A DNA stretch of 34,340 nt from Promethearchaeota archaeon (GCA_027031765.1 JALVPN010000144.1:41384-75723), one strand, 5' to 3'. Counted from the first letter of the stretch, positions 6,195-24,336 are shown. Program-made: numbers and translations. Notes: generated by a model from the sequence alone, not told the origin.

Positions 6195-6743
6195 TTGAAC
6201 ACAGTAGTCTACACGTTGACATATCTGGTGGCCGGTCTGACGCTGAAGACCGGTGACGATGTACTCGACGAGCTCGACATGCCATGGCTAGCATGGACCC
6301 CGCTGGTCCTGTCAGGACTGATGTTCGGACTCATAATGACCGTTTCACAGTGGGATTTTGCACTGATGACCGCAATAGTGATAGGGGTCACACTCGCGGG
6401 CAAGGTGAACAGGGTGGAGTTCGCTGGCGGGTTCATTGCACTAGTGGCTGTGCTGGTCTTCGTCGGCCCGCCAACAGTCACCGACCTGGGGGGCTGGGTC
6501 ACCTTGGTCATTGTGCTGCTCATTGCAGCAGCTGCAGACGAGGCCGCTGGTAACTGGACCGAGGGGCGGGGTACTTCACCCCTCACATGGCTCCTTGAAC
6601 ACCGTTTCGTACTGAAAGCATGCGCATTGTCGGTCATACCAATATGGCCACAGTTCCTCCCAGCCGGTCTTGGACTCTGGGTGTTCGATGCAGGGTATGA
6701 GATGGCCGGGACACTGGTGAAACGGGCTCAGTCAAGGAGCTGA
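6195..6743 (+). CDS. Uncharacterised polytopic membrane protein
   Basis: Several hydrophobic helices (LVLSGLMFGLIMTVSQ, FIALVAVLVFVGPP, WVTLVIVLLIAAAADEAAGN). No family recognised. Confidence 0.65.
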   Translation: MNTVVYTLTYLVAGLTLKTGDDVLDELDMPWLAWTPLVLSGLMFGLIMTVSQWDFALMTAIVIGVTLAGKVNRVEFAGGFIALVAVLVFVGPPTVTDLGGWVTLVIVLLIAAAADEAAGNWTEGRGTSPLTWLLEHRFVLKACALSVIPIWPQFLPAGLGLWVFDAGYEMAGTLVKRAQSRS

Positions 6744-7738
6744 TATGCCAGGCTGCAGCACACATCAAAGAACTCCGGTACAAGGCCCATCGCCACTGCG
6801 GTATCGACCCCCTCCTGGCTCACGTAGGCAATCCCGTTGACCCCGGCACGGACAGCAAACTTGTCGGTCTCGACCTTGTGTTGCCCGAGTGGCCGTGCAC
6901 AGCCCAAGAGTAGCGGGACATCGGCAAGGCCGAGACGTGCTATGACCATGAGGCGTGCAATGTCCTCAGGCGAAGGGGGGTTGACGTGCGCCATTGGAGT
7001 GTGACGGAGAGGGCTCAGTACAATCAGGACTACAGCAGCAGGATGGGTCTCGGATATGATGTGGAGGGCTTGGAGCTCGCCGTTCAGGCGACCATAGTCC
7101 AGGCCGACCAAGACATGTGGGACAACAGGGACACCAGCACGTTGCAGGTACAATAGTGACTCCCGCATCAGACGAGGGCCGTCATCCAAGTGGTACACAG
7201 AACGGGACACACTACTGCTGCCTATCACGTCGAGCATCGCTGCATCGACACCCGCCCTCGCAAGGCCCTCGGCAGTCTGGCGTGTGACCAGACCCGTATG
7301 TACGACTACCCTCAGGCCGAGTTCGTGTCTGGCCGCTGATATGGTATCGATGAAGCGTGCAAGCGGTACATGACCCGCAATGTCAGCCCCCCCACTGATT
7401 AGGACGCCCTCGCCGCCAGCCTCTGCGACCTGTCTGCAGGCCTCTAGGAGTTCCTTGGGAGTTGGCGCGGGTATCATGGCCCCTAGGAGGCGCCCTCTAC
7501 AGTGGTCACACTGGAGGGCACACGATGTACCAGTGATGCTCAGGGACACAAAGTTGTGGCGGCTCTTCTGCTGGTGTGATAGGATCTGATACGGATAGCC
7601 CGTGGGGCTGAAACAGAGGAGCCTGTGCCCATGACGCGAAGTGCGGAGAGAGAATGCTCGTTCCATCCATCGTTGGAAGTCTGTTGGAGAGGCGCCAAGG
7701 ACTAGGGGGCCCTGCTCAAGGATGTTGAAGCCGGTCAT
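6728..7738 (-). CDS. Radical SAM protein, biotin-synthase-like (function unknown)
   Basis: CALQCDHC = CX3CX2C motif, ISGGAD, C-terminal GCARPLGQHKVETDKFAVRAGVNGIAY typical of BioB-related archaeal radical SAM proteins. Confidence 0.8.
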   Translation of the reverse strand: MTGFNILEQGPLVLGASPTDFQRWMERAFSLRTSRHGHRLLCFSPTGYPYQILSHQQKSRHNFVSLSITGTSCALQCDHCRGRLLGAMIPAPTPKELLEACRQVAEAGGEGVLISGGADIAGHVPLARFIDTISAARHELGLRVVVHTGLVTRQTAEGLARAGVDAAMLDVIGSSSVSRSVYHLDDGPRLMRESLLYLQRAGVPVVPHVLVGLDYGRLNGELQALHIISETHPAAVVLIVLSPLRHTPMAHVNPPSPEDIARLMVIARLGLADVPLLLGCARPLGQHKVETDKFAVRAGVNGIAYVSQEGVDTAVAMGLVPEFFDVCCSLAYQLLD

Positions 7739-7806
7739 GGTGCGTGGGCTGCTGGTCTAAGAAACGCTATTAGGGTTATGATGTCAGTGTACGACAACTA
7801 CAAGTA

Positions 7807-9294
7807 GTGGTAGGAAAACGGGTCGGTGAACAACAACAGGAGGACGAACGCTTGTCTGGGTGTGACACTTCCGGCCTCGACGTGTTCTTCAATGCCAAGA
7901 GCGTAGCAGTCTACGGTGCATCAGCAACACCCAACAGTGTTGGTCAAGCAATCATCCAGAACTTCATCAAACCCCAGTATGAGGGCAAGGTCTTCGGTGT
8001 GAACCCGAAGTACAGGACAGTCCTGGGTGTGGACTGCTACCCGACACTGCAGGACATCCCGGACGAGGTCGACCTAGTGATAGTTGCAGTGCCGGCCAGG
8101 ATAACGCCACGGGTGTTCGAGGACATTGCAGCAAAGGGAGTGAGAGCGGCCATTGTAATATCAGGCGGGTTCTCGGAAACCGGCCCACGGGGTGCCATGC
8201 TTGAAGACGAGATTGTCAGGATTGGCAAAGAGCACGGGATCAGGATAATCGGGCCCAACTGCATAGGTGTTGTTGACACGCACACACATATTGACACGTT
8301 CTTTCTGCCGGAGTACCGCTGTGGGCGGCCCAAGGCCAGCAGTACTGCGAACATATCGTTGGTGTCACAGTCAGGTGCCTTTGCAGCAGCAATATCAGAC
8401 TGGACATCCGAACTCGGGATTGGTGTGAGCAAGATTATCAGTCTTGGCAACAAGTGCGATGTGGATGATGACGACCTCCTATGCTATCTGGGAAACGACC
8501 CGTCAACCCAGGTGATATGTTTCTATACGGAGGGCTATGACCTTGGGAAGGGACGCACCTTCTTCGAGACCGCAAGAAGGGTCACACAACAGAAGCCGGT
8601 GATTGTTGTCAAGTCAGGACGCAGTGAAAGAGCAAAGGAGGCCGCAAGCTCGCACACCGGGTCACTTGCTGGGCTGGACAGCATTGCTGACGCAGCATAT
8701 CGTCAGGCCGGGGTAATCCGGGCCACAGAGTTCGAGGAGATGTTTGTGATGGCGAAGGCACTGGCGATGCAACCACCAGCAAAAGGGGACCGGGTGCTCA
8801 TCGTCACAAACGGAGGGGGACTGGGAGTAATGACCACAGATGCGCTCGAGTCGCTGGGCCTGGCGGTGCCACACCCCTCGGGCGAGCTCAGGGCGCGACT
8901 GGAAGAACGGCTCCCCTCGTACTGCGCACTGGGAAACCCGTGCGATGTTGTGGGTGACACTGATGCTGGACGGTATGACGTAGTCTTCGAGGAGGCAATC
9001 CGCAGTGGAGAGTACGACCTCTTTGTGGTGGGAATGCTGCTACAGACACCAAGCCTCGGAATGGAGATTACGAACCACATTGCTAACTATCAGAAACAGT
9101 CTGGGCTCCCGTTCGTGGTGGTATCAATGGGTGGTAGCTTCACGAGGAAGGCCGGTGAAATCCTTGAGCTCATGGGTGTCCCCACCTATTCCACAGGCGA
9201 GAAGGGCGCGCTTGCAGCAAAGGCGCTCGTCAGATACGGTGAGATAAGGTACGGCAACGAGTTCCACAGGACTGTTACAAGCGAGAAACCATAA
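7807..9294 (+). CDS. acdA: Acetate/acyl-CoA ligase (ADP-forming) alpha subunit
   Basis: CoA-binding domain (VAVYGASATPNSVGQAIIQNF...), IIGPNCIGVVDT, phospho-His segment AASSHTGSLAG. Start codon uncertain. Confidence 0.92.
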   Translation: MVGKRVGEQQQEDERLSGCDTSGLDVFFNAKSVAVYGASATPNSVGQAIIQNFIKPQYEGKVFGVNPKYRTVLGVDCYPTLQDIPDEVDLVIVAVPARITPRVFEDIAAKGVRAAIVISGGFSETGPRGAMLEDEIVRIGKEHGIRIIGPNCIGVVDTHTHIDTFFLPEYRCGRPKASSTANISLVSQSGAFAAAISDWTSELGIGVSKIISLGNKCDVDDDDLLCYLGNDPSTQVICFYTEGYDLGKGRTFFETARRVTQQKPVIVVKSGRSERAKEAASSHTGSLAGLDSIADAAYRQAGVIRATEFEEMFVMAKALAMQPPAKGDRVLIVTNGGGLGVMTTDALESLGLAVPHPSGELRARLEERLPSYCALGNPCDVVGDTDAGRYDVVFEEAIRSGEYDLFVVGMLLQTPSLGMEITNHIANYQKQSGLPFVVVSMGGSFTRKAGEILELMGVPTYSTGEKGALAAKALVRYGEIRYGNEFHRTVTSEKP

Positions 9295-9314
9295 ATACGA
9301 GCGTCAGACCGACT

Positions 9315-10070
9315 ATGCGCACACGAGGCCTGATATTCATGAAGACCGTCAAGAAGATCTTCAAGACAGCCCTTGATGAAGGGCGGACATTCGTCCTGGA
9401 GGACGAGGCAAAGAGAGTAATGAGGGAGTATGGGATTCCGGTCCCACCATTCGCCCCGGCGGCGACGGAAGACGAGGCCGTAGCGAGAGCAAATGAGATT
9501 GGATACCCCGTCGTGCTCAAGATACTCTCGAAAGACATCATGCACAAGTCGGATGCCGGTGGTGTCAAAGTCAACCTGAACAGCGACGAGGAAGTGAGGA
9601 GGGCATTCCAGGAGATCATGGAAAATGCCACGCAGTATGGAAAGGAGAAAGGTATTGATGTCGACCTGAGCCGCGGGGTCATTGTCACACGTTTTGTTGA
9701 GATGGGGACAGAGACCATTGTTGGTGTGACGAAAGACCCTCAGTTTGGCCATGCGCTGATGTTTGGACTCGGCGGGATATTTGTCGAAGTGCTAAAAGAT
9801 GTCACATTCCGACTGATACCACTTACAGAAATCGATGCCCGCGAGATGGTCTACGAGATAAAGGCCAAGAAGATACTGGAGGGGATACGTGGACAGCCAC
9901 CACGCGACATTGACGCCCTCGTGGAGATAATGCTCACAGTATCAAAGATGGTCGAGGAAAACCCTGAGATTGTAGAGATGGACTGCAATCCCACCATCGT
10001 ATATGAACAGGGGAAGGGTGCGGTCGTTGTCGATGCACGCATGGTAATTGAGAGTGCCTCTAGTGACTGA
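9315..10070 (+). CDS. acdB: Acetate/acyl-CoA ligase (ADP-forming) beta subunit
   Basis: ATP-grasp ACD beta motifs: GIPVPPFAPAATEDEAVARANEIGYPVVLKILSKDIMHKSDAGGVKVNL; EMDCNPTIVYEQGKGAVVVDARMVI. Follows alpha subunit. Confidence 0.93.
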   Translation: MRTRGLIFMKTVKKIFKTALDEGRTFVLEDEAKRVMREYGIPVPPFAPAATEDEAVARANEIGYPVVLKILSKDIMHKSDAGGVKVNLNSDEEVRRAFQEIMENATQYGKEKGIDVDLSRGVIVTRFVEMGTETIVGVTKDPQFGHALMFGLGGIFVEVLKDVTFRLIPLTEIDAREMVYEIKAKKILEGIRGQPPRDIDALVEIMLTVSKMVEENPEIVEMDCNPTIVYEQGKGAVVVDARMVIESASSD

Positions 10071-11247
10071 GCAGTGAGCCCAGCAGGCGGCTCAAGAGTA
10101 TCAGGCCTCTCCTCAAGTCTGATGGGCTGATGCGTCCGGACGCAGCGGGGCCCGTCGCGATGGCGAGCAGTAGGAGGAGCGACATGAGCCGAGTCACAAA
10201 CAGGGTGTGCTCTAGGTGGAAGTCGCGGTTGCCACTCGCATCGACTATCAGGAGTTCGAGGCGTCTCATCAGCGGCTCAAGGTAGTCTGCCAGCCCCGAG
10301 GTGTTGTGTAGTCTTTTCAGGGCCTGCGTCACAGCCTGCGGGTCTTGCAGGAAGTCCAGTGGGACTCCAACCGCCCCCAGCAGTGCGAGGCCCCTGTGGG
10401 TCACTCGCTCGTAGTCTGACGCGCCAAGCTGTTCCATGGCCGAGGCAGCCGCATGACATTGTGCGAGTATCCGGAGTGAGCCAGTGAGCACCTCCCGGAC
10501 GATGCGCGGTCGCGTCGGGACAACTGGTGAGATGTGGACTGCATGTGACCGTTCAAGATGAGCTGCCATTGAAGAGTCGAGCTGTGACTCGAAGTCTGGA
10601 GCCAGGATGACATCAGCAGCCTTGAGGAGTATGGGATGGGTGCCTACACGGCGGACGGCGACTAATGCCCTGAACTCGTCCGGGTCGACATGGAAGAGCA
10701 GGACGCGTGTGACATCATAGGCCCGTTCAAAGTCGTTCTCTGTAGTGGAGCTGCGTCCCCGGAGAAATGAGAGCAGAGAACACAGTATCGTCCAGATAGA
10801 TACCAGCGACTCGCACATACCATCACATGCTGCCCGGTCGTTGACCTCATGTTCATCAAGGAAACGGGCAAGCCGGTCGACCGCACCGCCGAGGCGGCTC
10901 ATGGTCGGCCCATCAATGGTGACCGCCGCGAGGGAGTCGAGGGACTCGCGAGGACTGCGTGTTGGCGGCCGCAGCACGAAGAACGGTTGGCGCCGGTCAA
11001 GTGACCACCACCTTGATGTCGAGGCGAAGTAGTCAAGGAGGTCTATGCTCGCGGTCAAGTCGTCCATGCCAGTGGTGTTGCGTCCGTCCAGATAGGCCAA
11101 GAGGCGTGAGAAGAGCGAGAGAAACCGTGCGACATGGACGCGGACCGGGGTGCCGGCCAGTTTTGCGTCTGTGAAGTGGCCCGAAATCGTATTGATATGG
11201 GCCAGACATCCTTCATCTAGGGAGGTCGCAATGATGCCACGGTACAC
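10060..11247 (-). CDS. Uncharacterised all-helical protein with internal repeats
   Basis: 395-aa ORF, no known motif recognised; three similar helix-(GR)-T-D-helix segments. Confidence 0.6.
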   Translation of the reverse strand: MYRGIIATSLDEGCLAHINTISGHFTDAKLAGTPVRVHVARFLSLFSRLLAYLDGRNTTGMDDLTASIDLLDYFASTSRWWSLDRRQPFFVLRPPTRSPRESLDSLAAVTIDGPTMSRLGGAVDRLARFLDEHEVNDRAACDGMCESLVSIWTILCSLLSFLRGRSSTTENDFERAYDVTRVLLFHVDPDEFRALVAVRRVGTHPILLKAADVILAPDFESQLDSSMAAHLERSHAVHISPVVPTRPRIVREVLTGSLRILAQCHAAASAMEQLGASDYERVTHRGLALLGAVGVPLDFLQDPQAVTQALKRLHNTSGLADYLEPLMRRLELLIVDASGNRDFHLEHTLFVTRLMSLLLLLAIATGPAASGRISPSDLRRGLILLSRLLGSLLSH

Positions 11248-11395: not shown

Positions 11396-12175
11396 CTACT
11401 TGCCAAAACGACGGGTCCTGTGCTCGTAGGACCGCAACGCACGCCAGATGTCAATCCGTCGGACTGCTGGCCAATAGACCTGGGCGAAGTACAGTTCGGA
11501 GTATGCAGACTGCCACAGGAGGAACCCGGAGAGGCGTTCCTCGCCGGATGTGCGGATGATCAGGTCGGGGTCGGGGATGCCACTTGTGTAGAGGTGGCGT
11601 TCAATGACCTGCTCGTCGATGTCGGAGGGAGCAAGCTCCCCAACGGCAATCTTCTCACCAATAGCCCTGACAGCATCGACCAGCTCAGTGCGTCCTGAGT
11701 AGCCAATGGCAACGTTGAGGATGTGGTCGCTGTAGGCCGCGGTCTCTGCTTCTGCCATCCGTATGGCCTCCTGCACATCGGGGGGGAGGAGGTCCACCCG
11801 ACCTATGGCATTGATACGGACGCGGTGCTTGTGTACATCAGGGTTTCCAACGACCTCTCTGAACTTCTCCTTTGCAATATGCATGATGTGAGAGACCTCT
11901 TCTCTGGAACGCCGGAAGTTCTCAACGGAGAAGGCATAGAGCGTGCAGACCTTGACGCCAGCTTCCCACAGGATACGGAGCACTTCCATGACCTTCTGAG
12001 CACCCTTCTGGTGACCGAACCATGGGGCGTCTACACCGTGCTCGCGGGCGTATCGTCTGTTGCCGTCGAGGATTATGCCCACATGCCGGGGCGCCCTTTC
12101 TTTGTTCAGTTGCCTGTGCAACCAGAACTCATAGAGCCGGTAGACCGGACCAGTGAGGTTCAATGCTCCGCGCAC
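11396..12175 (-). CDS. uppS: Cis-prenyltransferase (undecaprenyl/polyprenyl diphosphate synthase family)
   Basis: RHVGIILDGNRRYAREHG, TLYAFSVENFRRS, NVAIGYSGRTELVDAVR, DPDLIIRTSGEERLSGFLLWQSAYSELYF. Confidence 0.95.
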   Translation of the reverse strand: MRGALNLTGPVYRLYEFWLHRQLNKERAPRHVGIILDGNRRYAREHGVDAPWFGHQKGAQKVMEVLRILWEAGVKVCTLYAFSVENFRRSREEVSHIMHIAKEKFREVVGNPDVHKHRVRINAIGRVDLLPPDVQEAIRMAEAETAAYSDHILNVAIGYSGRTELVDAVRAIGEKIAVGELAPSDIDEQVIERHLYTSGIPDPDLIIRTSGEERLSGFLLWQSAYSELYFAQVYWPAVRRIDIWRALRSYEHRTRRFGK

Positions 12176-12389: not shown

Positions 12390-12761
12390 CTATATCATCT
12401 TGGCAATCTTGTCGGCCGCCCGTTTCATGTCTAGGAAGATGAGGCCGAGCTTTGCATTTGCAGTTGTGGACACTGTAAGGCACGCATTCATCCCGGCCTG
12501 GACCACAAGCAGCCAGCCGTCGGCCCCCTTGATGTTCACCTGTTCAAGAGTGCCCTTGCCGAGTTCGATGGCAGCCTTCTCACCCAAGGTCAGCATGGCT
12601 GCCGTCATGGCGGCCACCTTTGCTTCGTCCACATCAGTGGGCAGGGCAGACACGATTGGCAGCCCCTCAACACTCACAATGGCACATGCCTCAATCTCAG
12701 GAATACTTCCCTGTAGCTCGTTGAGCACACCTTCAAGAGTATCTTCGCGTGTTTCACTCAA
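12390..12761 (-). CDS. Roadblock/LC7 (MglB-like) protein A
   Basis: LNELQGSIPEIEACAIVSVEGLPIVSALPTDVDEAKVAAMTAAMLTLGEKAAIELGKGTLEQVNIKG is a typical roadblock fold; 11 nt downstream of the GTPase gene. Confidence 0.9.
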   Translation of the reverse strand: MSETREDTLEGVLNELQGSIPEIEACAIVSVEGLPIVSALPTDVDEAKVAAMTAAMLTLGEKAAIELGKGTLEQVNIKGADGWLLVVQAGMNACLTVSTTANAKLGLIFLDMKRAADKIAKMI

Positions 12762-12772
12762 TTAGCCCCACC

Positions 12773-13345
12773 TCACTTGTACAACCGCTTGAGGATTACC
12801 TCGCGCGCTATCGCTTGGAATGCGCGCTTCACACCCACACCTTGGACAGCGATGGTCTCGTAGATTGGGACGTTCCCGCCAAGTCCCAGCAGGTCAAGCA
12901 TCTCCTCGCGGGACATCCGGTTTGGCAAGTCCCGCTTGTTGAGCATCACCACAATGGGGATTTCGCGCCCCAACGCATCCCCGAGGAACAGTTTGAGTTC
13001 CTCAAAGCTCTCGACGTTCTCCTCGCGTTGATCCGGGGACGAGTCGGCAACAAAGAGGATGCCATCCGCTCCTTGTAGGACGACCTTCCTCTGATGGCGG
13101 TGTCTCTTCTGACCGGCAACCGTGAACACATCAAAGAGCACGCGACCACCGGCACTCATCGGGACATAGTCAAAGAACAGAGTCCGGTTCGTTTCGTCCT
13201 CAATCGCAGTGAACTCGCCCTTCTGTAACCCCTCGACCTTGCCATACAGCCATCTCAGTGCAGTGGTCTTTCCACCCAGCGAGGGGCCATAGAAGACCAG
13301 TTTGAGATGGATGCGACCTTCGGTATCACGCCGTATTGTAAACAC
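12773..13345 (-). CDS. MglA-like small Ras-superfamily GTPase
   Basis: G1 FYGPSLGGKTT, G3-like FTVAGQ, ILFVADSS, G4 NKRD. Confidence 0.9.
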   Translation of the reverse strand: MFTIRRDTEGRIHLKLVFYGPSLGGKTTALRWLYGKVEGLQKGEFTAIEDETNRTLFFDYVPMSAGGRVLFDVFTVAGQKRHRHQRKVVLQGADGILFVADSSPDQREENVESFEELKLFLGDALGREIPIVVMLNKRDLPNRMSREEMLDLLGLGGNVPIYETIAVQGVGVKRAFQAIAREVILKRLYK

Positions 13346-13520
13346 CTCACTGTTCCACTGCGTTGTTAGTCACCGGGACAGGGCCCGGAGAGATCATCGA
13401 GAGATGCGGACTCCATGCCACTAAGGACGCGCGACTGATACGGGCCTCGCGGCCCGGCAGGATGGTCAGGACCCAGTGTGATGGCCAGAGTCCGGGGTTG
13501 AGTGTTCTAGATTTCAGTCC

Positions 13521-13547
13521 AATAAAAGCCTTTGTGGCACAGGCCAC
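13521..13547 (-). promoter_or_regulatory. TATA-like CTTTTATT with adjacent upstream palindrome GTGGCCTGTGCCAC, putative promoter of the MglA-like gene
   Basis: Same arrangement as upstream of L10e (3583-3608); distance to the GTPase ATG about 175 nt. Confidence 0.4.
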
Positions 13548-13750
13548 TGTTGGTGTGTCGAACCAAGGACAGCTTGGGACAGACAGGGCCATTGTAAGTG
13601 GCAGGTGGAAGTTGACAGATGACTCGTTGGACATTGTTCCGGCCACACTATCGCATGCTCTCATCCGCCAGCAGTGGGCACTATGACCATATTGGGTAGC
13701 TGTGACCCGTACGGTCGGGACGATACCAGCGCCCCTACTGGAATAGAGGC

Positions 13751-14221
13751 TCACACGCGCTCCAACTTTGCCAGAGCTGACCGCAGGTCTTCCTCGTCGA
13801 TGTCCTTGTCCTTGCCAGGGGCCTCAACACCCTCGACCGAGAGGAACTCGTCCAGCTCGCGGGCAAGCTGTGCGCCCTGCTTCTTCATTACAAGACGGAT
13901 GAGCCCAATGTTGACCTCGGCTTCCGACACAACGCACAGCACACCTTTCCCGCAGGCGGAGGCGAAAATCTTGCCCTGAGAGAACTCTGAGGTGACAATC
14001 TCAAGCTCACCGATCTGTAGGTTCTTGCCCTGTTCCTCACTGGCACAGAAGACGGCACTGGCAATCGCACCGATAGAGTCAACATCAACGGGGTAGTAGC
14101 TCAACTTTGACACGTTGGCAATTGTGAGTCCCGTCTTGTCAACCAGGATTACTTTCTTGATACCTTTGTCTTGCTTGATTATCTCGGTAAGGATCTTGTC
14201 GAAAGCCTTTGGATCAGTCAT
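13751..14221 (-). CDS. Roadblock/LC7 protein B with acidic C-terminal extension
   Basis: KILTEIIKQDKGIKKVILVDKTGLTIANVSKL...VDSIGAIASAVFCASEEQGKNLQIGELEIVTSEFSQGKIFASACGKGVLCVVSE. Confidence 0.85.
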   Translation of the reverse strand: MTDPKAFDKILTEIIKQDKGIKKVILVDKTGLTIANVSKLSYYPVDVDSIGAIASAVFCASEEQGKNLQIGELEIVTSEFSQGKIFASACGKGVLCVVSEAEVNIGLIRLVMKKQGAQLARELDEFLSVEGVEAPGKDKDIDEEDLRSALAKLERV

Positions 14222-14235
14222 GATGTCAACCCCAC

Positions 14236-14544
14236 TTATGCATTCTTCAGAACCACTAGTATCAGGCCTTCTCGTGGTTCCGGTGCGATGTTTATCTGTC
14301 CTTTGGAAGTGTCAAGAGTGAGGAACGAGAGGCTCCCCTCTTTCAACTCCCTCACGGCGTCAAGGGCCTTGCCGACCAGAGAAGTGATTATTGCAGCAAC
14401 ACTCTCGGTGGTCTCTGGGTCGAGGTCGCTACTCAAGGGTAGGCCTTCCATCGTGGTGACCACTACTCCACGGACGCCCTCTTGAGCCTTAATCTTGTTG
14501 AGGATTCCCTCAAGTTTCTCTTGGCTAATCAACGATGGTATCAC
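14236..14544 (-). CDS. Roadblock/LC7 protein C
   Basis: [79 protein letters not shown]. Start reset to GTG 14544 (upstream part of the listed ORF is low-quality sequence). Confidence 0.82.
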
Positions 14545-14692
14545 CGCTGCTGTCAATGGTGCTTCCAACGCATTTTTCGTACTCTTTCTGGGTATTTGAG
14601 AGTTGTGATTATTATCTCTGCGTATCGGCTGCACGCTGCACGTAGTAGCAGCCTGTACACTGCAAAGGGAGTGGCCAGAAATAAAGCTGCTC

Positions 14693-16357
14693 CTACTCGT
14701 CGTCATCGTCCTCCTCGTCGTCCTCACGCACCAGTTCATCAAGTCGTGCACGCATCTTTGAGATGTTCATGGACGCCATCATATCCCTGGCCATTGCGGC
14801 CCGGAATGGTGGGGCTGCTGCAGCCTCTGCCTGCACCTGAATCTGCTCCTCAAGGTCTTCTTCCTGTTCGGCCATTATGCGGTCGGCCGTTTCAAAGGAC
14901 TCACGTGCATGAGAGGGCGCAGCAGCAGCCATGGCACGCAGGACATGTCGCAATTCCCGGATTTTTGATGCTCCGGCCTCTTGGTGCCCATGAAATGCCT
15001 CCTCCCCCGCCTTCTGTACAGCAAAGGCTGCTGAGAGGGTCGGGTCAAACGATGCGAGGAGTTCATCCTCCCGGCGTGCAACTTTCAGTTCCGTGGTGAC
15101 GGCCCGGAGATGGCGCGCACCCTCATCGTCGGTGTATTCGACCTGTATCTGGATTGGGACTGTTTCGGACTCGATTTCGTGTGTTGGTTCCATGGAGAGA
15201 TAGATCTCATGGGTATCGGCTACAGCACCGATACGGCTGCTCCGTGCCCCCGCCAGTGAGCGGGCCGCCTCAGGGGAAAGGCCGGACACTTCGCCAACAC
15301 GCACCCCGGGTGGTGTGATGACCCGGACTTCGACATCGCGACCGAGAATGCTGGCCCCAGACAGACGGGCCATGTACTTGTCCAGTTCCGAGGGCGTGAC
15401 GTAGTACATCTGTCCGCCCGTTATCTCAGGAATGAGTCCGATGGTCTGTAGTTCCATTCCTGACCCTGATGCGATGCCCACCACATCGAAGATGACACCC
15501 ACATCATTGAACATCCGGGCAATCTGCTCATAGAACTCCTTGGCCGGGGTGACCTGATAGCCCTCCAATGCGCCAACGCCCTCATTTGCAAGCCCATCGG
15601 TAAGGAGCACCACACGGCCCACTCCGCGGTGTTTCGCAATGACATATGCTGCGGCGACAGCGGGTCCAAGGGCTGTGCCACCCTTGTCACGCAGTTGCCG
15701 GACATGGTGCTTCAGGCGGTCTGCATTGGTACCCACAGGGATCATCTTCACACGGTCCAGGAGCCTGCGGGTGGCGTCCATGACCCGTTCCAAGCTGGCA
15801 TAACTGCCAGGGGGTATCTGGATGGGCGCCCCGGTCTCAAGGTCACGTATCACCACGCTGCTCTCGAACTCAATAAGACCGAACATGGTCTCGGGAGAGT
15901 TTGCGGCAAGGCTGTCAATGGAGTTACTTAGACTGCGCTTCACAGCTGCAAGATTGGCGCCGGCCATGGAACCAGAAACATCAATCACTGCAAGGAATGC
16001 CTTTCCAGCTGCGGGCGCAGGCTGTGTCTCAGTGGTAGTGGTCTCCTTGGGTGGCGGACTGACAACAAAGTCGGTATCGCTACCAGCCGAAACTATCTCG
16101 CCCTCTATCACGTTCAGCGTGCCACAGAAGGAGCACACAAAGTGACGCCCTATGCGTGAGTCTTCCTTTATCTGGTCTGCACTGAGCAGGACTGCGCCAC
16201 ATTTGTGACATGCAATCGGGCGGCCTACAATGCGGCGTGGCTCCCGGGCCAGTTCTGAGAAGTCGATACGGACTACGTAGGGGAGGCCACGGGTCACATC
16301 CCGGGATGCTGGAAACATATCCGAGCTTGTCCGTAGCATGGGCATATACAGAACCAC
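14693..16357 (-). CDS. Sec23/Sec24-like protein: zinc-finger + vWA trunk + beta-sandwich + helical region, acidic tail
   Basis: [22 protein letters not shown], zinc finger CHKCGAVL...[12 protein letters not shown], v[13 protein letters not shown]...FGLIEFESS...[22 protein letters not shown], then [51 protein letters not shown]. Order and motifs parallel eukaryotic Sec23. Confidence 0.75.
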
Positions 16358-16705
16358 CGTCAGTCCAATTGTCTGGAGAGCCTATACATGAACCGTATTA
16401 AGTGAATCGTAGATGGGGGAGGGTCAAAAGGCGAGTGGGTATGGGCTCGAAAGCCACAACGTCCACAGCTGGGGGAACACGGAAAGGGTGGGGACAGCGA
16501 GGTGTACACCGTGCATACCGGTCGGGCTCCATAACTAGCTGCGAACACTAGCCCACAGGAAACCAGACAAGGGGCAGGGACTGGACGAGTGAACTGTGGA
16601 ACAGCGTGCGGCACAGCACCAACGGCATGGAGGCCGCCCACCAACACAAGATATAAGGAGTGAGTAATCCAAACCTAGTAACGAATAGACCGCTACGGGG
16701 ACTGA

Positions 16706-17077
16706 TTGACAGTGGTTGACAAGGCCAAGATTGAGAAGATAGTTGCTGATACAATGGCAGCTAATACCGACCTCGAGGGAATTGTGGTCTGTGAGCCGAC
16801 CGGCAAAGTGATCTTTGGGCACATGATTGCCGGGGGCATAAGACATGTGGACGTCGCGGGTCTTGCAGTCAAGATAGCAGCTGACGCGTCCCAGCTTGTG
16901 AAGACTCTTGAGAAGGGCGGACTGAGAGAGGTCACAATTGCATCGGAGCTAGGAGTCGTTGTGATTCTTGGTGACGTGAAGATGGTCGTGGCAGGAATAG
17001 CCGGGAAGAGCGCGCACGAGTCCATAGGGCTACTACGGATGGCCCTCAAGCGTGCGTTGCTAGAGATGGTGGAGTAG
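16706..17077 (+). CDS. Roadblock/LC7 protein D
   Basis: KIEKIVADTMAANTDLEGIVVCEPTGKVIFGHMI...VDVAGLAVKIAADASQLVKTLEKGGLREVTIASELGVVVILGD. TTG (or GTG 16712) start; TATA-like AGATATAAGG about 55 nt upstream. Confidence 0.82.
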   Translation: MTVVDKAKIEKIVADTMAANTDLEGIVVCEPTGKVIFGHMIAGGIRHVDVAGLAVKIAADASQLVKTLEKGGLREVTIASELGVVVILGDVKMVVAGIAGKSAHESIGLLRMALKRALLEMVE

Positions 17078-17284: not shown

Positions 17285-20200
17285 TTGGTCTACATTGAGA
17301 AGATTGTGGTCAAAGGGTTCAAGTCGTTTGGTCGCGAAACGGTGACCATCAGGCTGAGCCCGGGATTCACATGTGTTGTTGGACCTAACGGCTCCGGCAA
17401 GTCCAATGTGATTGATGCGATACTGTTCGTCTTGGGGCAACTCAGTGCAAAGACGCTGCGTGCTACTGTGTTCTCGGACCTGCTCTATAAGCCACCAAAA
17501 CCAGGTATGCCACCGGGCGCAAGGAAGGCGGTCGTGGAACTGCACTTCAACAACCAGGACCGCAAGCTGAAGGTCGATGCAGACAAGGTGGTCATTGCAA
17601 GAGAACTGGACGAGTCGGGCAAGTCGGTCTGCAGGGTTAACGGCAAGGTCGTTACAAGGGCGACTGTACTGGATGTGCTAGGGAGCATAGGTGTCGACCC
17701 AAACGGGTACAACCTTGTGCTGCAGGGTGAGATAGCACAGATGGTGAAGGTGAGCCCGAACGACCGTCGCAAGTTGATTGAAGAGATTGCTGGAATCTCG
17801 GCGTACGACGAACAGAAAGAACGTGCCCTGAAGAAGCTAGCGGAAAGCGAGGCTAATCTTGGCAAGGTGGAGGCACAGCTGCAAGAACGGCGCCGACAGC
17901 TCGAACGACTCGAGCTGGAGAGAGAGGATGCGCTCAAATATACCGAGATCCAGTCGAGGATGCAACAGATACGGGTTGACAGGCTGGCGTGGACCATCCT
18001 CAAGGCGCAGAGTAGGACTAGAACCATAAAGGAGAACCTCGTTGAGCGTGCGGAGAGGGCCAGACAGCTGGAGGAGAGGGTCAGGGAAGTCGAGAAGGCC
18101 ATAGACACCGCCGAAACAGAAATTGAAGAGATTGACCGGGCCATTGACCAGATCACAGGCAGCGAGTCTGCACGGGTGTCAGAACAACTGGGAAAGGCCT
18201 CAGCAGCACTCGAACATGTGAGAAGAGAGTTTGAGGGGCGAGCCAAGGAGCTTGAGGGCAAGAGGGCACTGCTCACCGTGACGCAGGAACAGATTGCCGG
18301 CTTGGGTCGCGAGATTGAGGAGGCCACCCGACAGATTGAGGAGAAGGAGAACAGGCTCAAAGAGGTGGTCGCCGAGGTCGAGGGCTGTGAGGACAGTATC
18401 CGACGACTTGAGACAGTTTCCGAACGGGAGCAAGCCCAGTTCCTCGAAACGACACAGAAGCTCCAAGAGCTCAACAGACTGGTCGCTGCGCTTGACGAAC
18501 AAATCTCAGAAGCCCGTTCCCAAGTCAGGTCGAACAAGAGGGACATAAGGCTCCTGTACGAGGACATAGAGGACGCCAAGGGCGCCCTTGAGAGGGCCGA
18601 GGCCGAGCGTGAGGAACTGGAGAGGACAGTTCCGGAGAAGCGCCAGGAGTTGGAAGTCCTTGAGCGTGAGGAGGAGGACACCCAGGACCAGCTGGTACGT
18701 GTCCGTGAGCAGCTGTCCAGAGTCGGTGCCGAGGTGGCCGAAACAAGCAAGATTGTCAGCGAGACCCGGGAGGAGCTCGTCAAGATACGTGCCCGGCAGG
18801 ATGCACTTAGAGAGGCTGAAGAGGCATTTCTGAGGAGGAAACGAGCTGTTGCACGAGTGCTACAGCTGAGGGACACGGGAGAAGTGGACGGGATCTATGG
18901 CACCGTTGCGGAGCTGGGCAAGATCAATCCAGACTACGCGGTCGCAATGGAGGTGGCCGGTGGAAACAGGCTCTCTTACATCGTCGTGGAAGACGAAGAT
19001 GTCGCGACCAAGTGCATAAGAGTCCTGAAACAGGAGCGTGTTGGTCGTGCGTCATTCATCCCGCTGAACAAGATCAGGACACGCGCGCCCGGAAAGCTGC
19101 CCGATGATGACGGTGTGATTGGTTTTGCACTAGACCTCGTCAGTTTCGACAAGCGACTACAGCCCGCATTCGAGTTCGTCTTCTCGGACACCATTGTTAC
19201 CGAGGACTTTGAGGCGGCCAAGCGCATCGGCTTCAGGGGCAACCGTGCGGTCTCGCTGGATGGGGACCTTGTTGAGCGTTCGGGACTGGTCACGGGAGGA
19301 CACTACCAGAGGCAGACGGCCGGGCTCACACTGCAGATTGAAGACACAACACCGGAGGTCATCACCCGCCTCGAAGGCCTTGAAAACATACTGGCTGGGC
19401 TGCTGCAGAAACAGGAGGAACTAGAAGCAACAAGACAACGTCTTGAGAAGCAGGCCCAAGACCTGTCGAAGAAGCTGTATGTTGGACGGATGGAACTCGA
19501 ACGGCTCGAGGAACGGCTTGGAGACCGTCAGACCCGTGTGTCTATGTTGACCGAGAGAATAGAGGAGAACGGACAACGTGTTGCAGCCCTAGAGAGAGAG
19601 ACCCACGAACTGGAAGAGGAGATGGACAGGCTAATAGCGGAGAAGGAACGTATTCAGGAGGAACGGGACGCCTGCAACGAGATACTTGCACGGTCGGATG
19701 TTGCAAGGGTCAACCAAGAGATACGCGATTTGAAAGTGGTGCTTGAACGCAAGGCCCGTGAGAGAGATGAGATAAAGGACGCGTTGTCTAGGCTGAGAAC
19801 CAGCGTTGAGGAGAGGTTTAGACCGCGTGTCCACGAACTCCAGAGAAGACTTGATGCCACGGAGAGAGAGATACCAACACTGGAGGCCCAAGTACGTGAG
19901 TTGGAGCAGGAACTTAAGGAAAAAGAGGCCCAGTACGAAACGCTCAGAAGCGAACATGCCCGGATAGAGGCTTCTGTGAAGGACAGACGTATCCGTCAGG
20001 CCGAGTTGAAGAGAAAACTTGCCGACCTGCGACGCGCGCTCGATGAAACAAAGGACGAGCGGACCCAGAACGACAAGGCGATATACCGGCTGCAGACCGA
20101 ACAGGCACGTCTGGAGAACGAGCTGGTCGGAGTGGAGGCCGAACTGGCCAACCTAGCCGATGTCAGAGAGGAACTGGAGAAGAGGCGGTCGATGCGGGAG

Positions 20201-20875
20201 GTGACATACAGGGAGCTCGACGAGATGACGGAGAAGATCAGGGAACTTGAGCGGGAACTCGATGAGATGGGGCCGGTCAACATGAAGTCGCTGACAGACT
20301 ATGAGGCTGAACGTGAGAGGTACGAGGAGATTGTTGACAGGAAGGTCAAACTGGAGGAGGAACACAAGGAAATCCTGCGGTTCATGGAGGAGCTGGAGGC
20401 TGAGAAGACGCGGAAGTTCCTCAGGGTGTATAATGAGATAGCGGACAACTTCTCAAGGGTGTTTGCCAAGCTCTCACCGGGTGGAGAAGCACATCTGATG
20501 CTTGAGAACCCTGAGCACCCGCTCATGGGGGGGATAATTGTAAAGTCAAAGCCGCAGGGCAAGGATGTCGTCACGCTGGATGCCATGAGCGGTGGGGAGA
20601 AGACGCTCACAGGGCTGGCCCTGATATTTGCAGTGCAGATGTACAGCCCCGCAAGCTTCTACGTCTTTGATGAGATTGATGCAGCCCTTGATGATGTAAA
20701 CGCACACAATGTTGCGACTCTCATCTCAGAGATGTCGAAGTCATCGCAGTTCATTGTGGTATCCCTGAGGGAGGCCACCGTTAGCAAGGCAGACCTGTTA
20801 ATCGGAGTTTCGAACCAAGACGGTATCTCACGGATCGTTTCGGTCGACCTGGAGGGGGTGACGAGCACTGCATGA
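17285..20875 (+). CDS. smc: SMC chromosome-segregation ATPase
   Basis: GFKSFGRETVTIRLSPGFTCVVGPNGSGKSNVIDAILFVLGQ, long coiled coils, hinge GIYGTVAELGKINPDYAVAMEVAGGNR, signature LDAMSGGEKTLTGLALIFA, Walker B FYVFDEIDAALDD. Confidence 0.98.
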   Translation: MVYIEKIVVKGFKSFGRETVTIRLSPGFTCVVGPNGSGKSNVIDAILFVLGQLSAKTLRATVFSDLLYKPPKPGMPPGARKAVVELHFNNQDRKLKVDADKVVIARELDESGKSVCRVNGKVVTRATVLDVLGSIGVDPNGYNLVLQGEIAQMVKVSPNDRRKLIEEIAGISAYDEQKERALKKLAESEANLGKVEAQLQERRRQLERLELEREDALKYTEIQSRMQQIRVDRLAWTILKAQSRTRTIKENLVERAERARQLEERVREVEKAIDTAETEIEEIDRAIDQITGSESARVSEQLGKASAALEHVRREFEGRAKELEGKRALLTVTQEQIAGLGREIEEATRQIEEKENRLKEVVAEVEGCEDSIRRLETVSEREQAQFLETTQKLQELNRLVAALDEQISEARSQVRSNKRDIRLLYEDIEDAKGALERAEAEREELERTVPEKRQELEVLEREEEDTQDQLVRVREQLSRVGAEVAETSKIVSETREELVKIRARQDALREAEEAFLRRKRAVARVLQLRDTGEVDGIYGTVAELGKINPDYAVAMEVAGGNRLSYIVVEDEDVATKCIRVLKQERVGRASFIPLNKIRTRAPGKLPDDDGVIGFALDLVSFDKRLQPAFEFVFSDTIVTEDFEAAKRIGFRGNRAVSLDGDLVERSGLVTGGHYQRQTAGLTLQIEDTTPEVITRLEGLENILAGLLQKQEELEATRQRLEKQAQDLSKKLYVGRMELERLEERLGDRQTRVSMLTERIEENGQRVAALERETHELEEEMDRLIAEKERIQEERDACNEILARSDVARVNQEIRDLKVVLERKARERDEIKDALSRLRTSVEERFRPRVHELQRRLDATEREIPTLEAQVRELEQELKEKEAQYETLRSEHARIEASVKDRRIRQAELKRKLADLRRALDETKDERTQNDKAIYRLQTEQARLENELVGVEAELANLADVREELEKRRSMREVTYRELDEMTEKIRELERELDEMGPVNMKSLTDYEAERERYEEIVDRKVKLEEEHKEILRFMEELEAEKTRKFLRVYNEIADNFSRVFAKLSPGGEAHLMLENPEHPLMGGIIVKSKPQGKDVVTLDAMSGGEKTLTGLALIFAVQMYSPASFYVFDEIDAALDDVNAHNVATLISEMSKSSQFIVVSLREATVSKADLLIGVSNQDGISRIVSVDLEGVTSTA

Positions 20876-21585
20876 GTGATGACAACACCCCCTTCTGGGC
20901 CACGCCCCCGTATATACTGTTGACCGACGTGCTCCAACTTGACAAGGTCGACCCCTGGAACGTCGATGTCGGAAAGCTTGTGAGGGAGTTCCTTGAGGAG
21001 ATGAAACGACTTGGTGACATCGATTTCAGGGTCTCTGGCAGTGCGTTGTACTCTGCATCAGTCATATTCATGCGCAAGACACGGGATCTCGTGAAGATGG
21101 GGGTGCTACCACCGGAGGAGGACGAGGAGGAGGAGCTCGAAATCCCACTGATTAGACCCCCGTTCAGACTCACGAACCGGCGTGTGACCATTGAGGAACT
21201 GCTCGTCGCGATGGACAGAGTCCTCTCCCGAGGCATCAGAGGACGGCCGTCACCTAGCAGACGGAAGAGGGGCTCACAGGTGGCACCCCCGACCTTGAAG
21301 ATGGAGGTAAGCGAAACAAATGTGGAGGAAACAATAGCAGAAGTGTATGCAGACCTCCGGCAGATGATGGGAGTTGGCAGTACCTGTCGATTTGAAGACC
21401 TGCTCGTCAACAACACCAGACGTGAGATTGTACGTGTGTTCTTCTCCCTGCTGTACTTGTATGCAAGGGGGTACATTGACCTGTGGATGGACGAGGAGCA
21501 GACAATCTGGGTCAGGCTTCTCGCACCGCCAGTCAGCGGACACGAACAGCTCGCACAGGTCGAACAACAACACGGGCCCAGGTGA
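20872..21585 (+). CDS. scpA: Segregation and condensation protein ScpA (kleisin)
   Basis: ATGA overlap with smc; PPYILLTDVLQLDKVDPWNVDVGKLVREFLEEMKRLGDIDFRVSGSALYSASVIFMRKTRDL matches ScpA N-terminus. Confidence 0.93.
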   Translation: MSDDNTPFWATPPYILLTDVLQLDKVDPWNVDVGKLVREFLEEMKRLGDIDFRVSGSALYSASVIFMRKTRDLVKMGVLPPEEDEEEELEIPLIRPPFRLTNRRVTIEELLVAMDRVLSRGIRGRPSPSRRKRGSQVAPPTLKMEVSETNVEETIAEVYADLRQMMGVGSTCRFEDLLVNNTRREIVRVFFSLLYLYARGYIDLWMDEEQTIWVRLLAPPVSGHEQLAQVEQQHGPR

Positions 21586-21588
21586 GGA

Positions 21589-22131
21589 TTGTTGGACGAG
21601 GACATGGTGACACTTGAGGCTGCACTGTATGTCACCGGTCGGCCGATGGCCTTGGAGGAACTCGCATCGCTCATTGGGAAGGCCGAGTCCACGACCAGGA
21701 AGCTGCTTGAAGAGCTCGCATTCGAGTATGACAGGCGTGGCGGGGCTCTCGAGGTAGTTGCACTCCCGCGTGACCGCTACGTACTGCAACTGAAGCCAGA
21801 ACTGACGCCCCGTGTTGGAAAGCTGATCCCAGGTGGCCTGCTGTCATTTGCGACGCTGCAGACCCTCGTGTACATTGCGCTGAAGCAGCCAATCCTTCAG
21901 TCAGAACTTGTGTTGCAACGTGGGACACAGGCATACGAACATGTGAGAGAACTTGTAGACAAGAAGTTCGTACAGGCGACTCCCGAGCGGCGCACCCAAC
22001 GGCAGGAAACAACACCACTGTTTGCAGACTACTTTGGGTTTGACCACGACAAGGTGAAGATGAAAGCACAGCTGCGACATAGGATGAGGAAAATCCTTGA
22101 GGAGCAACGACTGGCAGAACAGAACTCCTAA
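21589..22131 (+). CDS. scpB: Segregation and condensation protein ScpB
   Basis: LEAALYVTGRPMALEELASLIGKAESTTRKLLEELAFEYDRRGGALEVVALPRDRYVLQLKPEL; downstream of scpA. ATG 21604 is an alternative start. Confidence 0.92.
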   Translation: MLDEDMVTLEAALYVTGRPMALEELASLIGKAESTTRKLLEELAFEYDRRGGALEVVALPRDRYVLQLKPELTPRVGKLIPGGLLSFATLQTLVYIALKQPILQSELVLQRGTQAYEHVRELVDKKFVQATPERRTQRQETTPLFADYFGFDHDKVKMKAQLRHRMRKILEEQRLAEQNS

Positions 22132-23144
22132 CACACACGGGGGACAGGCTCACCATAGGGGACTTGGATGAGCTTCCGACCACCAATGGCAGTCTTCATG
22201 GTGACACGTGGTGGGCCCTGACGGATAGTGCCTACTACACAGGCGTTTCTCGTAGTACTGTGCTCTGCGAGTGCCTCAAGTATGGCATCTGTCCTCTCAT
22301 GGTCGACTGCCATCACGGCAACCCCCTCACAGCTCATCTCGAACGGGTTCAGACCAAGGATTTCACACAGTGAGTAGACCTCAGGTCTGACTGGCACCTT
22401 GTCCTCTACGAGCTCGATTTCCACATGCGACTTGTAGGCAATCTCGTTCAGCGCAACTGCAGTGCCCCCACGGGTCGGGTCTTTCATCGCATGGACACCA
22501 CCGACATCCAGGCAGTCTTTGATGGGATGCCAGAGGGGGGCAACATCGCTTGTGAGGGACGTTGAGAACTCAAGCCCCTCACGGTGGGCAAGCAGTGTGG
22601 TGCCATGGCTCCCAATGGGGCCGGTCACTATGAGGTCGTCACCAATACAGGCCCCGCTATCGGTGACGGGTGCGTCGAGATAAAGACGACCAATCCCGGT
22701 GGTAGACATGATGAGGCCGTCAATAGTGCCGGGTGGCATGACCTTTGTATCGCCGGCAATCATGGCCACATCTAGACTCTCAAGGACACTGTTCAGCGAC
22801 TCCAAGATGCGACGCAGGGTGTCAATCTCAAAGCCCTCCTCCACCACGATTGTGTTGGTCATGGCGATGGGCTCAGCACCCATGACTGCAAGGTCGTTGA
22901 TGGTGCCACAGGCGGTCAGGGTACCGAGGTCGCCACCCGGAAAGAAGAGGGGCTGCACGGTATGAGCGTCGGTACAGACCACCAAGTGACCTGAAGGGGG
23001 GACTGGGAGTGTGGCGCCGTCATCCATCTCATCAAGACCGACCCGGCCCAAGGACCGCTTCGAGAAGGAGGGGATGACCACCTGTTCGAGTAGACGCTGC
23101 ATCAGCTTGCCGCCACCACCATGTGCGGCCTCAATCCGGTCCAT
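22128..23144 (-). CDS. hypE: Hydrogenase maturation protein HypE (C-terminal PRVC)
   Basis: AHGGGGKLMQRLLEQV, VVCTDAHTVQPLFFPGGDLGTLTACGTINDLAVMGAEP, MKDPTRGGTAVALNEIA, terminal PYGEPVPRVC with the catalytic-type C-terminal Cys. Confidence 0.95.
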   Translation of the reverse strand: MDRIEAAHGGGGKLMQRLLEQVVIPSFSKRSLGRVGLDEMDDGATLPVPPSGHLVVCTDAHTVQPLFFPGGDLGTLTACGTINDLAVMGAEPIAMTNTIVVEEGFEIDTLRRILESLNSVLESLDVAMIAGDTKVMPPGTIDGLIMSTTGIGRLYLDAPVTDSGACIGDDLIVTGPIGSHGTTLLAHREGLEFSTSLTSDVAPLWHPIKDCLDVGGVHAMKDPTRGGTAVALNEIAYKSHVEIELVEDKVPVRPEVYSLCEILGLNPFEMSCEGVAVMAVDHERTDAILEALAEHSTTRNACVVGTIRQGPPRVTMKTAIGGRKLIQVPYGEPVPRVC

Positions 23145-23417
23145 ATGACATATCTCCGAAGAGCACTATATGCTATCATCACCTCACGACCACTAGGGAG
23201 TATATGAAGTGGACGATAGGGTGGCAGACAACAGGGCTGCGGGCATCAGTCCGACAACAGTTCTGCCGGGCATGCGACCATGACCTGACGGGCTGTTGTG
23301 TACATGGTGTGACTCAGCGGTGCCCGGTACAGTTGGCCTAGCGTGCACTATTCTATTACATAATGCTTAAAACCACAGTACAGTGGTCGACATTGACTGA
23401 AAGATGAGGTCATAGAG

Positions 23418-23795
23418 ATGGGTGTATGGCACAGGAGATCTCGCCGGTCACCAACTGGGGCAAAACGAAAGCCCTTCCGGAGCAAGAGAAAGTTCGAGAT
23501 GGGACGTGTGCCCACTGAAACCCTTGTTGGCGAGCCCAAGCTGTTGAGGGTTGACAGTAAGGGCACACGGAAGAAGACGCCGGCGCTGAGGCTCAACATG
23601 GTGAATGTGACAGACCCGAAGAAGAACGTGACCTACCGGGCGGAAATCCTTGACGTTGAAGAGAACAAGGCGAACATGGACTATCAGCGCAGAAAGGTCA
23701 TTACACGGGGCACCATAATCAAGACATCAAAGGGTAGAGCGAGAGTCACCAGCAGGCCGGGACAGGACGGCGTGCTAAATGCAGTGCTCATCTAG
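23418..23795 (+). CDS. rps8e: 30S ribosomal protein S8e
   Basis: MGVWHRRSRRSPTGAKRKPFRSKRKFEMGRVPTETLVGEPKLLRVDSKGTRKKTPALRLN...YQRRKVITRGTIIKTSKGRARVTSRPGQDGVLNAVLI. Confidence 0.97.
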   Translation: MGVWHRRSRRSPTGAKRKPFRSKRKFEMGRVPTETLVGEPKLLRVDSKGTRKKTPALRLNMVNVTDPKKNVTYRAEILDVEENKANMDYQRRKVITRGTIIKTSKGRARVTSRPGQDGVLNAVLI

Positions 23796-24232
23796 GTGTG
23801 GGCCTGTCCGCCGCACTGGGCTGGCTCTGTGGGGCATATCTGGTCGTCCGGCCCCTCCATCTCGACCTCTATGTTGGTCACAATAAACTCCTTGCCACCT
23901 ACAATCACAGTGGCACTGCTGCCGCAACTCGGGCACTGCATTGGCGCAAACATGGCAATCTCTGGTGATAGACCACCAGGTGTCTGTGCGACACCTTCGT
24001 AGCCGCACTCCTGACACTGGATACGACCATGGACGATATCAATGTTCAGCGTGGCGCCCTCCAGCAGGGTGCCCTTCGATGCAACTTCAAAGTTGAACTC
24101 CAGTTGTTCTGGTATTAGGAATGTGAACTCGCCCACCTGTACATTTACGGCAACGACACGTCGCACGTTGTGCTGTGTTGCAGTTTCCAGTGCGGCCTCC
24201 ACAATCGAACACGCAGCCGAGAACTCGTGCAT
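23792..24232 (-). CDS. hypA: Hydrogenase/urease nickel incorporation protein HypA
   Basis: MHEFSAACSIVEAALE start, VQVGEFTFLIPEQLEFNFEVASKGTLLEGATL, zinc motif CQEC...CPSC. Start reset to MHE. Confidence 0.92.
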   Translation of the reverse strand: MHEFSAACSIVEAALETATQHNVRRVVAVNVQVGEFTFLIPEQLEFNFEVASKGTLLEGATLNIDIVHGRIQCQECGYEGVAQTPGGLSPEIAMFAPMQCPSCGSSATVIVGGKEFIVTNIEVEMEGPDDQICPTEPAQCGGQAHT

Positions 24233-24336
24233 TGGGTACCGACCGTGTGACACCGGACGACTGGCATTAAGTGGTTTTTGATACAGGCTGGGCTGGTGCG
24301 ACCCTTTATATGAACGTGCGGTGTCAATATAACGTG

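Follow-up and report, generated by a model that had tools for sequence, protein, structure and literature searches.

In bacteria, the roadblock protein MglB orients the catalytic residues of the small GTPase MglA while contributing none itself, and nucleotide exchange is accelerated by docking of the acidic C-terminal MglB helix on helix α5 of MglA (PMC6785124, PMC11016934). In Asgard genomes, small GTPases number in the dozens and roadblock proteins are likewise numerous. Matching the two by gene arrangement is described as difficult, and in MK-D1 the GTPase genes do not, as a rule, share operons with roadblock genes (PMC10933270). Sec23/24 proteins have previously been reported from Thorarchaeota (PMC7997004), and homologs of coat protein complex II (COPII) have been mentioned for Asgard archaea (PMC10307638). 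Here, we describe a 34,340-nucleotide stretch of DNA from a Promethearchaeota archaeon (the window), located on contig C144 of the thorarchaeotal (Asgard) assembly G000 (2.95 Mb, 95% complete), which encodes an MglA-family GTPase, four roadblock proteins (RobA-RobD) and a Sec23-like protein (Sec23L). The original prediction for this locus was a primitive coat/GTPase module with Sec23L as effector or GTPase-activating protein (GAP). Our analysis suggests that the window probably contains an ancestral Asgard MglA switch with four distinct roadblocks, in which RobB would act as both GAP and exchange factor, and that Sec23L is a thorarchaeotal passenger or lineage-specific effector rather than a core component or a GAP of the Sec23 type.

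The association of MglA with roadblock genes extends across the Asgard archaea. MglA adjoins at least one of robA-C in 16 of the 26 families sampled (f-numbers are working labels of these families), and coordinates show that no more than about 3 kb separates robB from MglA in 29 genomes from 11 families other than Thorarchaeota. All five core genes are clustered in f6, f9, f10, f11, f12 and f13, while robA, robB, robC and MglA are clustered in f4, f5 and f16, robB, MglA and robA in f20, and robB and MglA in f27. The combination of robC and MglA, with or without robA, occurs in f15, f17, f21 and, by coordinates, f19, the robC scores being low in f15 and f19. Families f3, f7 and f22 contain four roadblocks with MglA not between them, three of those roadblocks, and robB plus robC, respectively. 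Judging by contigs in common with named records, Loki-type genomes and Harpocratesius fall within f2 and f18, Hermod within f9, Jord/Frey within f11 and Borr within f13. SMC adjoins robD in f1, f9 and f11 and is near the roadblocks in f3, and UppS is located beside the cluster in many families. Because it is spread over so many families, the cluster probably predates their divergence. The scattered genes of f2 are in line with what has been published on MK-D1 (PMC10933270). The new part is the Asgard-wide cluster with its four roadblock groups; no description of an Asgard MglA-roadblock cluster was found in the open-licence literature, which is an incomplete set.

Judged from its sequence, the GTPase is of the MglA type and not of the Sar1/Arf type. 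Among solved structures, the closest is MglA of Myxococcus xanthus (E 2e-39), followed by the Arf family (1e-11). Most orthologs begin three codons downstream of the start in the window. Arg54 and Gln79 are the counterparts of MglA Arg53 and Gln82, and are kept in 54/56 and 56/56 of the aligned proteins, respectively. The G3 motif contains a threonine instead of an aspartate (T-V/T/A-A-G-Q) in every MglA sequence displayed, and the last helix, α5, is basic, with the pattern KRAFQ...REV.LKR in most families.

By sequence, the roadblock proteins fall into one short type, RobC, and three long types, RobA, RobB and RobD. The profile comparisons indicate that the one most similar to MglB is RobB and not RobA. 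MglB is the top solved match of the pan-Asgard RobB profile (E 1.5e-6), with LAMTOR2 farther away, while the closest solved structure to RobA is 7F8M (E 6e-24), MglB reaching only E 0.08. The 11-nt gap to MglA had made RobA a candidate for the MglB counterpart, a case weakened by the greater similarity of RobB to MglB and by the RobB tail. RobC matches 7F8F (E 5e-26); we take 7F8F and 7F8M to be the Odin-RBLC7 and Thor-RB proteins of the Asgard roadblock structure paper. RobD alone is below the Pfam threshold (14.3 bits; the cut-off for Robl_LC7 is 23 bits), and 15/21 of its orthologs match Robl_LC7 (best E 1.2e-5). Its similarity to RobA-C is weak in profile-profile comparison, and its grouping is taken from the Pfam matches of the orthologs and the tree. 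This tree was inferred from 102 domains, including as background a further 11 roadblocks from the same genome. RobB (support 100/98), RobD (100/99) and RobC (91/82) each form one branch, and the roadblock groups require five changes in total, the minimum, compared to 59.8 with shuffled labels. The relations among the groups are unsafe because of the long branches. Roadblocks are common in G000, with 14 matches, 13 of which exceed the Pfam cut-off, RobD not being one of those 13; it is thus the arrangement rather than the presence of roadblocks that counts.

RobB contains an acidic C-terminal tail with the consensus ELKAALxELEK, following a linker of varying length. In f2, f18 and f26 (L150-L155, L158, L166, L168, L169), the tail is exchanged for a conserved tail of the GLDLSDLD type. 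The sequences show the MglB-type pairing of an acidic RobB tail with a basic MglA α5, from which we infer an MglB-like role for RobB. MglA would alternate between its GTP and GDP forms, and the RobB dimer, like bacterial MglB, would orient MglA's own Arg54 and Gln79, while docking of the acidic tail on the basic α5 would result in quicker exchange. RobA, the LC7-type RobC and RobD may serve as additional dimer partners or scaffolds. LC7-type roadblocks have been proposed to bind a partner helix, and docking of the RobB tail in the open groove of RobC was therefore considered as well, an idea that the data neither favor nor oppose. The prediction of a GTPase switch with several roadblock partners is supported, and this part of the gene order is conserved across the Asgard archaea.

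Several observations weigh against this interpretation. In the Loki-like families f2 and f18, and in f23-f26, robB is located apart from MglA. Families f23-f25 keep the RobB tail but have no close MglA ortholog, so that the co-variation of tail and MglA is not clean and is suggestive only. The AlphaFold2 (AF2) model of RobB, made from an alignment of Thorarchaeota only, is poor (predicted local distance difference test, pLDDT, 39.8), and the tail is therefore termed a helix only by analogy. RobA constitutes one group in the tree, but without support (45/0), and there is no supported split from other roadblocks. Two MglA proteins in f13 (L139 and L177, genomes G057 and G059) have a phenylalanine at position 54, which suggests an altered catalytic mechanism. 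Finally, the conserved block also contains SMC-ScpAB, UppS and the acyl-CoA synthetase, and conserved order alone is thus no proof of a complex. A more far-reaching proposal is one ancestral Asgard complex in which all four roadblocks heterodimerize around a single MglA and to which Thorarchaeota added an effector subunit of the Sec23/24 type. Such a complex would be an archaeal equivalent of TRAPP and Ragulator-Rag, which came later; we regard this proposal as doubtful.

About 30 thorarchaeotal genomes share the order ScpB-ScpA-SMC-robD / Sec23L-robC-robB-MglA-robA-UppS, which far exceeds what is expected by chance, and Sec23L and MglA are neighbors in 29 of the 30 genomes whose contigs permit judgement. 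A wider 20-kb block is also kept, and thorarchaeotal synteny alone is therefore weak evidence of function. Conservation in the neighborhood is highest for MglA, RobA, RobB and RobC, with median identities to the window of 95, 92, 88 and 84%, respectively, compared to 79% for UppS, 61% for RobD, 60% for SMC and 56% for Sec23L. The robB/MglA joint exceeds 600 bp in 9/28 loci and is where large insertions concentrate; as read from the sequences, these include a membrane protein that resembles a channel and a kinase-like protein. One genome (G007) has robA-UppS inverted and away from MglA, and in another (G022) the flanks are rearranged with the stretch from UppS to robD intact. In G004, Sec23L is located on a separate contig and robD directly adjoins robC, with the order robD-robC-robB-MglA-robA kept. 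In G003 (L144, around 8089), a near-exact deletion has left only the end of Sec23L between flanks that are 95-98% identical to those of a relative, although this is a single draft genome and mis-assembly is possible.

Sec23L itself has, according to its predicted structure, a genuine Sec23/24 fold. The window protein matches Sec23_trunk with 39.8 bits (cut-off 27 bits), while the Sec23_BS and zf-Sec23_Sec24 matches are below threshold but correctly ordered, and its identity to named Thorarchaeota records is about 55-61%, which places the window in this group. The family profile matches Sec24 over the zinc finger, trunk and beta-sandwich (E 6e-17), and these domains were matched in 16/39, 39/39 and 37/39 members of the Sec23L set, respectively. 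The AF2 model (pLDDT 90.5, predicted template modeling score 0.89) matches Sec23/24 in Foldseek with E 2e-28. Its 46 top structural matches all come either from COPII Sec23/Sec24 or from a Sec23/Sec24-containing ring assembly of Toxoplasma (query template modeling scores 0.61-0.73), ArnB (8s05) being ranked 47, and bacterial VWA matches fail to match the Sec23 models. The zinc cysteines and a complete metal-ion-dependent adhesion site (MIDAS) are invariant in the family. Since Sec23L is all helical beyond the beta-sandwich, the gelsolin-like C-terminal domain is missing from the model. In yeast Sec23, the Sar1-directed arginine is located in this C-terminal region. There are no separate Sec23 and Sec24 paralogs, only a single full-length copy, in G000 and the other Sec23L-bearing genomes. 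Because Sec23L is single-copy with an intact MIDAS and no gelsolin-like domain, a role as Sar1 GAP is unlikely. G000 also contains 26 matches to the Arf profile, unsorted as to Sar1-like members, and the GTPase linked to Sec23L is MglA.

Outside Thorarchaeota, Sec23L is located elsewhere or absent in every Asgard family examined. The cluster copies of these families, found by scanning around MglA and robB, do not contain it, and linkage of Sec23L to MglA was observed in 0/17 genomes having full-length Sec23L and a listed MglA, the two being on different contigs or, in G102, 120 kb apart. Scans around Sec23L in Hermod-, Jord-, Frey-, Loki-, Borr- and Sigynarchaeota and Harpocratesius identified neither a roadblock or GTPase of the module beside it nor a broadly conserved partner; the second-largest neighbor group was Sec23L's own antisense frame. 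On account of its position in these families, we reject membership of Sec23L in the ancestral module. Since it is unlinked there, and has been moved or deleted within Thorarchaeota (G004 and G003), Sec23L is best seen as an addition that would have arrived between robD and robC in Thorarchaeota, as a passenger or a lineage-specific effector.

These data bear directly on the coat module of the original prediction, with a GTPase that brings Sec23L, as effector or GAP, to the membrane and with the roadblocks as a scaffold. The true Sec23/24 fold and the proximity of Sec23L to the cluster in almost every thorarchaeotal genome are consistent with such a module. However, the linkage is confined to Thorarchaeota, the cluster is intact in both genomes in which Sec23L is lost or moved, the protein is single-copy without the gelsolin-like domain and evolves much faster than MglA, and the GTPase is MglA rather than Sar1. 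With its own catalytic arginine and glutamine, MglA has no need of an arginine finger of the Sec23 type. Conservation of gene order across Asgard archaea, which the original prediction named as a check, was found for MglA and the roadblocks but not for Sec23L, and we consider both the coat and the GAP function of Sec23L improbable. Equally improbable is an old housekeeping neighborhood of SMC-ScpAB, roadblocks, MglA, UppS and acyl-CoA synthetase, which shared expression would have kept together while MglA and the roadblocks form no physical complex. The unrelated genes for UppS, SMC and the acyl-CoA synthetase (g9315) are likewise kept in several families, but the adjacency of MglA and roadblocks survives the loss of SMC or UppS in f4, f13, f17 and f20, and bacterial MglA/roadblock pairs are functional complexes (PMC6785124). 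A Ragulator-like scaffold that chiefly serves Rag-like GTPases encoded elsewhere, with MglA as one client, is very unlikely: RobB also matches LAMTOR2 and MAPKK1_Int, RobC exceeds the cut-off for LAMTOR5, and f3 has its four roadblocks without MglA between them, but RobB resembles MglB more than it does LAMTOR2, the roadblocks are three long and one short, not two of each, and no LAMTOR1-like gene was seen among the neighbors, although no search was aimed at LAMTOR1. The cluster offers a specific, testable GTPase-roadblock pairing, with the RobB tail as an exchange element as its concrete prediction, and cautions against reading the thorarchaeotal neighborhood of Sec23L as an ancient coat module.

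The genes named in the original prediction are all present where it placed them, and the gaps of 14 nt between robC and robB and 11 nt between MglA and robA are correct. The Sec23-like open reading frame was first called at 14693-16357(-), with the ATG at 16345 as the probable start. The gap between robB and MglA is about 0.4 kb; from this, and from the unrelated insertions at the joint in relatives, we guess that the cluster probably consists of two or more transcription units.

Features of the window (positions counted from its first nucleotide)
Feature	Position	Strand	Remarks
UppS-type cis-prenyltransferase	11396..12175	-	Prenyltransf 259 bits; robA often adjoins UppS in relatives
robA, 123-aa long-type roadblock protein	12390..12761	-	Robl_LC7 61.7 bits; median 92% identity across Thorarchaeota
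MglA-family small GTPase	12773..13345	-	Arf 50.5 bits, Ras 34.5 bits; MglA E 2e-39
robB/MglA intergenic joint	13346..13750		Unrelated genes inserted there in relatives
robB, 156-aa MglB-like roadblock protein	13751..14221	-	Robl_LC7 39.0 bits
Acidic C-terminal tail of robB, residues 140-156, DIDEEDLRSALAKLERV	13754..13804	-	Kept after variable linker; likened to MglB Ct-helix (PMC6785124)
robC, short LC7-type roadblock protein	14236..14553	-	Robl_LC7 57.5 bits; start codon uncertain
Sec23L (zinc finger, intact MIDAS, beta-sandwich, helical domain)	14693..16345	-	Refined start; Thorarchaeota-specific neighbor
robD, divergent long-type roadblock protein	16706..17077	+	Robl_LC7 matches of orthologs; single tree branch 100/99
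SMC	17285..20875	+	SMC_N, SMC_hinge; robD often adjoins SMC in relatives
ScpA	20872..21585	+	SMC_ScpA 40.7 bits
ScpB	21589..22131	+	SMC_ScpB 101.7 bits

On the UppS side, the region 6728-11247 encodes a radical SAM protein and an ADP-forming acyl-CoA synthetase-like enzyme in two halves (7807-9294 and 9315-10070), and a fast-evolving 395-aa protein with no Pfam match and a median identity of 40% is located at 10060-11247. Past SMC-ScpAB, at 22128-24253, there is an AIR-synthase-family protein, a candidate HypE-like protein, and a HypA-family protein. Elsewhere in G000, further small-GTPase genes are located about 0.3-8 kb from other roadblock genes at four sites (C144:3315-4905, C77:26786-27815, C40:79905-82286 and C31:30533-39223), and such neighborhoods may therefore be commoner in Thorarchaeota than in MK-D1.

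Compared to known systems, the locus is similar to MglA/MglB of M. xanthus and Thermus in having an MglA-family GTPase with a threonine at G3 and intrinsic arginine and glutamine residues, and a roadblock partner with an acidic C-terminal tail encoded nearby. It differs in containing four roadblock paralogs rather than one or two (MglB, MglC), and in being archaeal and joined to SMC-ScpAB and UppS, with no sign of bacterial polarity partners such as RomR. Sec23L shares the zinc finger, trunk, beta-sandwich and helical domains of COPII Sec23/Sec24 in the same order and fold, but is a single protein with an intact MIDAS, no gelsolin-like domain and no adjacent GTPase of the Sar1 type. Among the Asgard roadblocks Thor-RB, MKD1-RB and Odin-RBLC7 (PMC10933270), RobC is close to 7F8F and RobA is related to 7F8M; while the MK-D1 GTPase genes are not as a rule in operons with roadblock genes, most other Asgard families link GTPase and roadblock. 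Similar to Ragulator (LAMTOR1-5) and the Rag GTPases, several roadblocks with LAMTOR2/3/5 matches are placed near a small GTPase. However, MglA lacks the roadblock tail domain of the Rags, and the three long and one short roadblock differ from the two long and two short ones that are wrapped by LAMTOR1. ArnA/ArnB of Sulfolobus (PMC12852372) also combine a VWA domain with a metal site, a beta-sandwich and a helical C-terminal domain with a zinc finger in the partner, and provide the structural match 8s05, but Sec23L, a longer protein with a zinc finger of its own, is far nearer to Sec23/24 by Foldseek, and no FHA partner was seen. Finally, the conservons of Streptomyces (CvnB, CvnD; PMC13343842) also place an MglB-type roadblock and a small GTPase in one operon, while the Asgard cluster has more roadblocks and no histidine-kinase-like or CvnC-type partner.

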